From Daucus carota subsp. sativus (taxonomy: Eukaryota; Streptophyta; Magnoliopsida; Apiales; Apiaceae), in NCBI RefSeq assembly GCF_001625215.2, contig NC_030381.2, positions 51,917,214 through 51,981,213 of the forward strand: 64,000 bases of DNA. The letters run 5' to 3'. The translations under genes and the position numbers were made by a program. The stretch's first letter is position 1. Each line of letters opens with the position of its first letter. This document shows, piece after piece, positions 48,701-51,141 of the stretch. The notes beneath the pieces are model-generated. The model searched no databases. It saw only the letters and a program-made list of their open reading frames with translations, and was not told where the DNA came from.

Positions 48701-51141
48701 AAGGAATATCAACATCAGATATCATAATGAGGATTGTTAAAGATTACAATGAGTATGTTATACGTAACTTAGATCGGGGGTACTCTAGAAAAGAACTGGG
48801 TGTCAGCTATGTGAAGGCATGTTCCTTTCTAGTAACTATATTGTCATTTTACCATATATACACTTCAAGATGGTTTTATCTTAAATAAATTCTTACTTTG
48901 TATCAGGAGAAGAGATTGAGAGTAAACATGGGATTGAAAAAGCTGCGGGAGGAAGTGAAAAAACAGCAAGAGAAAGTGGAAGAGAAGGTAATAAGTAATA
49001 ACTAAATACGTTGGTGATATAATTGATTAAATTACACTCTTAAGTCTTAGAATAATATATGTCCTCCATTGACTTTATACTCTTGTAGACCATCTTTTTT
49101 TTTTCCCACACCCCAATTAGACCATCTTAAAGCTTAGAAAGCAGACATCTATTTTATAGGATATAGTTTTAACAGTTTGCAAGCCTGGTGGCCAACTTTA
49201 ATGTTTGTCTTAAATGGTCTAGATATATCTAATTGACTTACTATTAAGTTAGTTTTTAATGAGTCTTTTGACTATAAAAGTGGATGAAGGACACTTGTTA
49301 CAGTTTGAGTATGTCCATAAAATGATGCATTTGCCTTTAGTTATAGTTATAAGTCCGCATATGTATTTGATTCCTGATTCTCAGTTTCTCACTATGTCCA
49401 TGAAATGATACATTTGCCTTTAGTTATAGTTATAAGTCCGCATATGTATTTGATTCTTGATTATCAGTTTCTCACTATGTCCATGAAATGATACATTTGC
49501 CTTTAGTTATAGTTATAAGTCCGCATATGTATTTACTTCTTGATTCTCAGTTTCTCACTATGTCCATGAAATGATACATTTGCCTTTAGTTATAGACTTA
49601 TAGTTATAGTTATGAAATGATACTAGTTAAAAAGGTGATGCATATATCGAAAATTAGTCACCTTTTAAGGTAGTATTATACTATTATCTATGAACTTTGA
49701 TATGAATCATTGATCAATCTGATAAACTGATGTAGTGGGCTACAGGAATTTGTCACATTCAATAGAAGCAACTGTTCAAAATGGTTGAAGAGATAAAACC
49801 ACAGTTTCATACCTACATTAAGCATGTCTTTTTATCAATGCTTTGTATCGTTTGAAGTATGGCATAGAGTATAGATCAGTATTCTGTTTGTATGAATATA
49901 TCATATCAACATGATTCAAATTCGTTAAAAACTTCCCAAACCTTCTGATATTAAAGTTTCGTTTGCTACACTTAGTCCTCTTAGAGTTTTAGTGTTATCT
50001 TGTAAATTTTAATGCATTTACACTAGTTGAATTATGATCTGTGCCTTGTGGACTTTCAAAAACAGATGCAAACAGTCGCAAAAACTCGTAACATGTGGGT
50101 GGATAATGCTGACCGTATGCAGGGGTGTAAATGAGCCGAGCCGAGCCGAACCCTAGAGTGCTCGTGTATCGTTTGTTAAAAAATTAGCGAACTCGAACTC
50201 GAGCTCGAGCTTGGATCGAGCCAAAAATACTGTTTGAGTATCGACTCATTAAGGAATAACTCTGTTCACGAACGGCTCGCGAACCGCTCATGAACATGTC
50301 TCACGAGCTTTTGCTCACGAACCGCTCATTAACTTACGCTCACGAACGTGTCTCACAAATTTTTGCTCACCAACTGCTCATTAATTTTGTTCACGAGCTT
50401 GTTTAATAAATTTTGCTAACGAGCTAGCTTATGCTCATAAATTTATTTACGAGCTTGTTTGTTATTTAATTTAATTAAAAATAAAATAAAATTCTAATGG
50501 TATTTTAATTTATACTCTAAGGAATCATAAATTCATAATAAATCATCCATTAATAAAACTCCCACATCCACGAACCATGTTCACGAACTCATAATTCGAA
50601 CTTGTTCGCGAACTATCGAGTCGAACTCTACTGTGCTCAAGTTCAGCTCGTTTATAAAACGAACCTTAAAATTGTACTCAAGATCGACTCATTTATGAAT
50701 CGAACCGAGGTCGAACCGAGCTTTCTTCGAACCGAACACTGAGCGGTTATCGAGCGTATCAACTCATTTACAGCCCTAACCGTATGGTTGCTGGTTTTCT
50801 TGAAATGTTTGAAGAAGGGTGCCATAAAATGGTAAGCTTCCTTGCCCCTCTCTCCCTCCCCCCTCTCCTCCCTCTCCCCCTCTATTGATTGGTTGATAGC
50901 TTGTGTATAATCTATCTATTGATTGATAGCTTGTGTCTATAATGGACATGGTCATTGTTCCGTTGTTTAATATTATTGAACATTAATCATTCATTAGGGG
51001 ACTGCCATCAGAGACCGAATTCAAGAACAACTGATGGTGAAGGACAAGGAGGATTATTATGATGATGACGATGATGAAGATTTCTACGATGCCAGCACCG
51101 ATGAAGAATATGACGACAGCAGCGTCGATGTTAAAAAATAA
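45696..51141 (+). CDS. CCT: Choline-phosphate cytidylyltransferase, 8 exons
   Basis: It makes CDP-choline from phosphocholine and CTP, the controlling step of the Kennedy pathway to phosphatidylcholine. Exons: 45696-45850, 46712-46825, 47340-47435, 48536-48578, 48661-48816, 48907-48987, 50066-50831 (interrupted) and 50998-51141. Residues 25-31 PVRVYAD lead to the nucleotide-binding HFGH (39-42). [29 protein letters not shown] and HDSLPYADTSG follow, then the signature RTEGISTS (148-155). A basic amphipathic stretch ([17 protein letters not shown]), suited to membrane binding, and an acidic Asp/Glu tail close the protein. Without the exon 7 insertion it is 295 residues, close to plant CCTs. 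Intron 5 (48817-48906) is GC-AG. A hAT element lies inside exon 7 at 50120-50778; if its own splice sites (50125-50773) are used the protein gains six residues (301), otherwise it stops at 50132-50134. Confidence 0.9.
47509..47711. repeat. hAT-like end and G-rich tract in intron 3
   Basis: CAGTGTTGTTAAAGGCGC at 47509 looks like a hAT terminus, followed by repeated AAGCGCTAAA motifs. No matching right end or duplication was found. T10 then a G-rich tract with a few A (47680-47711) follows. Confidence 0.4.
49311..49597 (+). repeat. 83-bp tandem repeat, 3.4 copies
   Basis: Units start at 49311, 49394, 49477 and 49560 with ATGTCCATGAAATGATACAT; the period is exactly 83 bp and the copies are nearly identical. 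It lies in intron 6 of the cytidylyltransferase gene. Confidence 0.9.
50120..50778. mobile_element. hAT element inside cytidylyltransferase exon 7
   Basis: ACCGTATG stands on both sides (50112-50119 and 50779-50786), a perfect 8-bp duplication. The left end CAGGGGTGTAAATGAG and the right end CTCATTTACAGCCCTA are inverted apart from two bases. The 659-bp interior is rich in GAGCCGAGC, GAACTCGAG and CTCACGAAC motifs and has no transposase frame. The exon reads ...NADRM on the left and [15 protein letters not shown] on the right, so the insertion point is inside coding sequence. Confidence 0.9.

Follow-up and report, generated by a model that had tools for sequence, protein, structure and literature searches.

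One of the four CCT (choline-phosphate cytidylyltransferase) genes of carrot carries a 659-bp hAT-type MITE inside its seventh coding exon. The gene lies in the window, a stretch of 64,000 nucleotides that corresponds to bases 51,917,214-51,981,213 of C1 (56,320,272 bp) in the 441-Mb genome of Daucus carota DH1 v3; positions below are those of the window unless a contig is named. We favour, with a probability of roughly 0.6, the reading that this is a young exonic MITE whose host allele is partly rescued by splicing, the loss being buffered by three intact paralogues. According to this reading, the element would have entered the 99-nt exon 7 very recently and in sense orientation, and the three other CCT genes would cover any loss. 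Overall, the insertion is real, young and probably polymorphic, and a candidate splice between its termini is plausible from the DNA letters.

The interrupted exon and its element-free counterparts

The DH1 assembly consists of nine contigs (C1-C9) of 33-65 Mb, the largest of 64.56 Mb, and DH1 v3 has been published as a long-read assembly of 440.7 Mb with nine chromosomes, the longest of 64.5 Mb (PMC10581907). The gene has been identified by a domain search (PF01467, CTP_transf_like, E=1.4e-32), and the rat CCT-alpha structure 4mvd matches its protein with E=2.2e-77, the CCT catalytic core being present. On the plus strand, translation and splice phase place exon 1 at 45696-45850 (ATG at 45696), exon 2 at 46712-46825, exon 3 at 47340-47435, exon 4 at 48536-48578, exon 5 at 48661-48816, exon 6 at 48907-48987 and exon 8, including the stop codon, at 50998-51141. 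Exon 7 is divided into a portion 5' of the element (50066-50119, its last 8 bases forming the first copy of the target site duplication) and a portion 3' of it (50787-50831), the corresponding exon of a paralogue being unbroken. Without the element it comprises 99 nt, i.e., 33 codons, and is symmetric and therefore frame-neutral. The exons joined in this way translate, letter for letter in a script comparison, into the carrot protein P0001 of 295 aa, which is the product of an empty site.

Some further features of the locus and its surroundings have been observed. Intron 5 (48817-48906) starts with the non-GT donor GC (AAG/GCATGT), and the same intron of the paralogue also begins with GCATGT. 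Intron 6 contains a tandem repeat of 83 bp in 3.4 copies with 96% match (49310-49595), and intron 1 a tandem duplication of 215 bp with 81% matches (46171-46594). An Rfam search of positions 45000-52000 has given no match at the gathering score. Elsewhere in the window, ORFs for a C-type lectin and a kinase, all on the minus strand (59720-61861), resemble exons of a single lectin receptor kinase gene, and two intronless acyltransferase ORFs on the minus strand (8549-10018, Transferase family; 16390-17784, PF02458) are presumably both of the BAHD type.

The element occupies positions 50120-50778 and is flanked by perfect 8-bp copies of ACCGTATG (50112-50119 and 50779-50786), as verified by script, which bears out the insertion described by the sequence-only reading. 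It is composed of 39% G+C (61% A+T); its left end reads CAGGGGTGTAAATGAG and its right end, reversed, TAGGGCTGTAAATGAG. The TIRs are short and imperfect (left TAGGGG/CAGGGG, right reversed TAGGGC) and show the T/CAGGG start of hAT elements; we take such ends to be hAT-like. Together with the duplication and the TIRs, 38 parsed genomic copies define it as a hAT-type MITE.

The age of the insertion can be estimated from an alignment with 36 copies of the family (L063 and L065, each over 900 bp, are omitted), in which the CCT element has a single private base in 659 and is thus very young. The nearest aligned copies are L027 with 98.2% and L028 with 97.5% identity, both of which start with C like the CCT copy. 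At a substitution rate of 7e-9 per site per year, the insertion would be about 0.2 million years old, with a wide error.

The longest contig of P0001 measures 61,008,411 bp and is none of C1-C9, the chromosome of the window being 56,320,272 bp long; the protein is listed with two contigs, the second of which could be the window's own chromosome. A protein search with a neighbouring gene has additionally found a carrot protein on a contig of 53,692,311 bp outside the DH1 assembly, i.e., a second carrot assembly is present in the database. An origin of P0001 from exact splicing of the element plus one duplication copy has been ruled out, as the ends of this 667-bp removal are GT-AG in none of the nine registers, and therefore P0001 is best explained by an element-free allele. 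The youth of the copy and the position of P0001 on a contig of another assembly make it probable that the insertion is polymorphic, with DH1 carrying the element and one or more other carrot alleles lacking it. From the 295-aa empty-site product we infer a DNA empty site on the 61-Mb contig.

Three paralogues in the carrot genome have open frames. Exon 7 is unbroken in the one at C1:4.89 Mb, whose CDS is open over 290 aa. Two intronless copies, L009 (C4:43893898-43894737) and L010 (C5:47044124-47044963), with 79% and 78% identity and frames that are open over 313 and 328 aa, look like old retrocopies that are still open; both retain the conserved WVxNADRWVAGFLE block. The protein DCAR_0417358 has been located on a contig of 51,152,908 bp, which is the length of C4.

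The MITE family in the carrot genome

A genome search with the element has returned at least 44 match rows, of which 37, the CCT copy among them, are near full length; these numbers are lower bounds, with 40 scored of 192 candidates, and the family may comprise roughly a hundred copies in carrot. Parsing of 38 other copies with flanks of about 2 kb (L027-L063 and L065) has revealed direct repeats of 8-9 bp in 29 and of 6-9 bp in 36 of them, when small end shifts are allowed, and none in the remaining two. The pair L034 and L042, about 20 kb apart on C9, shares its flanks and the duplication ATGACAAA and is counted as one insertion, which seems to have been duplicated later together with its surroundings.

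The ends of the family bear directly on the origin of the putative splice sites. The 16-nt right end CTCATTTACAGCCCTA, which contains the acceptor AG, occurs exactly 95 times in the genome and not once in the reversed control, and therefore this AG is a feature of the family. The earlier proposal that one base change had created the acceptor is accordingly not confirmed, and a private origin of this site is rejected. Exact counts for the left end are 92 for TAGGGGTGTAAATGAG and 12 for CAGGGGTGTAAATGAG, some of which may be mirrored right ends. Among the 38 copies, GGGGTGTAAAT and TTTACAG are found together in 23 and singly in 27 and 31, respectively; L028 has ACAA at its right end where others have ACAG.

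The suggested search for other copies inside exons has covered the 38 parsed copies and 20 further right-end loci. One of the 38, L035 (C8:1898745-1903422), interrupts a 404-aa NLR-type ORF (WH_DRP, LRR_14) in antisense, and the other eight element-spanning ORFs of the 38 copies (at least 85 aa, flanks joined at the duplication) have given no Pfam match. Among 20 further right-end loci, six have both ends and a target site duplication; of these loci, L073 lies antisense within a 113-aa ORF and L074 (C1:23096827-23097877) sense within an 86-aa ORF, both ORFs having no Pfam match. The genome contains 145 matches to the L074 ORF, many of them with stops; this ORF therefore looks like a repeat and not like a host gene, so that L074 seems to be a MITE inside another repeat. 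Neither the 38 full copies nor the 20 further right-end loci, with 51 right-end loci lying outside this count, have yielded another sense insertion in an exon of a host gene, and the family is therefore not called an Introner family here.

Predicted transcripts and their proteins

When the element is retained, the in-frame TGA that had been read from the sequence (50132-50134) forms its fifth codon, and translation ends after 237 aa. Transcripts retaining the element should be degraded, presumably by NMD, given that an exon junction lies roughly 700 nt beyond this stop. Two routes could rescue the allele. In one, the enlarged exon 7 would be skipped, yielding in frame an enzyme of 262 aa without the autoinhibitory/membrane helix. 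In the other, the ends of the element itself would be spliced from 50125 to 50773, giving 301 aa with the residues MQGPNR inside this helix.

The first route is supported by P0002, a carrot CCT record of 262 aa ('isoform X3') that equals the exact join of exons 6 and 8 by script and is the only isoform-type record found. The RefSeq models have been built on DH1 v2, i.e., on the same line (PMC10581907), and therefore the skip may come from the element-bearing allele. However, every allele keeps its frame when exon 7 is skipped, and thus P0002 may not stem from this allele and could reflect ordinary alternative splicing of the empty one. Both P0001 and P0002 are representatives of clusters at 90% identity with 10 and 3 member sequences, of which the representatives are visible; as the clusters hide their members, a 301-aa record may exist. 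A search for partial carrot transcripts with a 113-aa C-terminal query has given 34 proteins with a best identity of 78%, none of them carrot-named (12 of the 34 being nameless).

The second route depends on a GT and an AG that lie, as the sequence-only reading had correctly placed them, five bases inside the element ends: the candidate 5' splice site at 50125-50126 (GGG/GTGTAA) and the candidate 3' splice site at 50772-50773 (TTTACAG/CCC). Removal of 50125-50773 leaves a CDS of 906 nt in eight exons, encoding 301 aa plus stop. The arithmetic of 5+5+8 = 18 nt behind this closure has thus held, and it is automatic for an element that has these ends and an 8-bp duplication. Any insertion leaves 18 nt, because five bases remain per end and eight come from the duplication, and the full frame is restored by 22 of 492 GT-AG pairs (at least 70 nt apart) in exon 7 plus element, so that a closed frame is not rare. 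In a simulation over 868 positions of the CCT CDS, the 18-nt remnant has been open at 732 positions when starting with C and at 442 when starting with T; for the phase in which the element has actually inserted, the numbers are 290 of 290 versus 0 of 290. Therefore, what permits the open frame is the base with which the subfamily starts and not the acceptor. In the CCT copy this base is C, where T is usual, whereby an in-frame TAG is avoided.

In the protein, the six residues MQGPNR would sit directly after M233 of P0001 or, equally, between R232 and M233. Across 32 aligned plant CCTs, picked from 120 listed matches, V227, N229, A230, D231, V234-L238 and F241-E243 are invariant, and none carries an insert at this position. 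In the alignment with rat CCT-alpha (4mvd), the counterpart of the conserved block is QKWEEKSREFIGSFLEMF, which we take to be the autoinhibitory part of domain M. A location between the membrane-binding helix and the acidic tail, as originally suggested, has been ruled out by these alignments; the insert falls inside the conserved autoinhibitory/membrane helix block. An AlphaFold model of P0001 has a single helix (226-266) spanning the site and is, at its low pLDDT of 57.7, weakly consistent with this placement. The insert, which bears Gly-Pro, should disturb the helix; the autoinhibitory mechanism of CCT has been described elsewhere (PMC10720463). In Nicotiana benthamiana, CCTs cut at 201-212 aa are reported to expand the ER, the edited truncated forms being described as constitutively active, and no homozygous plants have been recovered when all CCT copies were truncated (PMC11933863). 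From these results, carrot could tolerate that a single one of its four CCT genes loses the helix.

Alternative readings and known systems

Within the favoured reading, splicing between the termini is one plausible route; that GT 50125 and AG 50773 form the main route, and that the MITE is a newborn intron adding six residues, is a less probable proposal. The frame closes, the element is intron-sized and A+T-rich, and its putative donor pairs with U1 at -4.9 kcal/mol, which beats four of the seven own donors of the gene, belongs to the best 8% of 1,140 GTs and ranks third of 39 GTs within 50060-50840. The acceptor (CAG) is preceded by an ordinary tract with 10 of 17 pyrimidines, the own acceptors of the gene having 7-15, and no form truncated at the stop of the element is among the three listed CCT entries that bear the name of carrot, nameless entries being without species. 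However, the exonic GT 50099 upstream pairs better (-5.8 kcal/mol), and a further GT at 50127-50128 (GGT/GTAAAT, -3.7 kcal/mol) competes and shifts the frame with AG 50773. The predicted RNA fold of the whole element (z -5.4, 20 shuffles) ties both ends and both splice sites into one stem, a pairing that could hinder or help splicing. Moreover, the Gly-Pro insert splits the conserved helix block and has been detected in none of 120 representatives (of 2,612 CCT matches, cluster members being hidden) and in none of the 34 proteins from the C-terminal search.

We regard it as unlikely that this is a null or strongly reduced allele of recent origin, in which the element would be mostly retained, the transcripts degraded and the activity supplied by the paralogues. 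The early in-frame TGA and the open frames of the three paralogues would suit it, and two carrot DH1 genes have been reported to give isoforms with a whole hAT-like MITE (PMC8227079). The skip isoform P0002 speaks against it, as does the remaining CDS, which is intact and identical to P0001; the latter point is weak, because any insertion of such youth should show the same. An assembly artefact, by which the element would not truly be at the CCT locus of DH1, could explain the carrot protein that has the sequence of the empty site, but is highly improbable considering the exact 8-bp duplication that fits the element ends, the distinct sequence of the element (not above 98.2% identity to any of the 36 aligned copies) and the long-read assembly. 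The young MITE in an allele partly rescued by splicing and backed by its paralogues is therewith the reading we retain, the proportions of skipped, retained and terminally spliced RNA being presumed.

The kind of event is already known. Maize Ds insertions in exons are, according to the original papers of Wessler, reportedly spliced from pre-mRNA. Splicing of maize Ds/Ds1 (hAT) exon insertions has been described, the sites of Ds1 being functional by RT-PCR (PMC5432752). Ds/Ds1 shares with the carrot MITE its nature as a non-autonomous hAT element, the 8-bp duplication, the plant host gene, the terminal splice sites and the expectation of several alternative products, whereas the carrot sites are candidates. 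In the carrot family, unlike in Ds, a single best donor/acceptor pair lies close to the tips and leaves 10 nt plus the duplication. Carrot hAT-like MITEs, i.e., of the same species, line (DH1) and superfamily, have been reported to create splice variants, and the word cytidylyltransferase is absent from the main text of this study of 428 families (PMC8227079). For the in-frame arithmetic, an Aureococcus Introner adds 4 nt plus an 8-nt duplication, i.e., 12 nt (PMC9860276), compared with 10+8 = 18 nt here; Introners are non-autonomous DNA transposons with both splice sites, as the carrot element would be, but provide introns at many loci, whereas the carrot family is known from a single sense insertion in an exon of a host gene, the splice of which is predicted. 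Among the papers listed on Introners in plants, titles and abstract beginnings have revealed no plant hAT case. It is doubtful that the family represents an Introner-like system of a land plant, with a donor and an acceptor placed at its ends in such a way that every sense exonic insertion leaves 18 nt and preserves the frame. In this reading, a CAGGG-starting subfamily would additionally have lost the TAG that stops translation in one phase, and the CCT insertion would be a nascent intron that is not yet fixed within the species.

Intron births are seldom observed while under way. Here, the element in the exon is nearly unmutated, and the matching empty site is present in a paralogue within this genome and probably also in a second allele of the species. 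If the terminal splice is used, the CCT copy would be a land-plant case of Introner-like intron gain; for land plants, the 2022 Introner survey reports none (PMC9860276). If exon skipping dominates, DH1 would make a CCT without the regulatory helix; the truncated CCTs of N. benthamiana have been described as constitutively active (PMC11933863).
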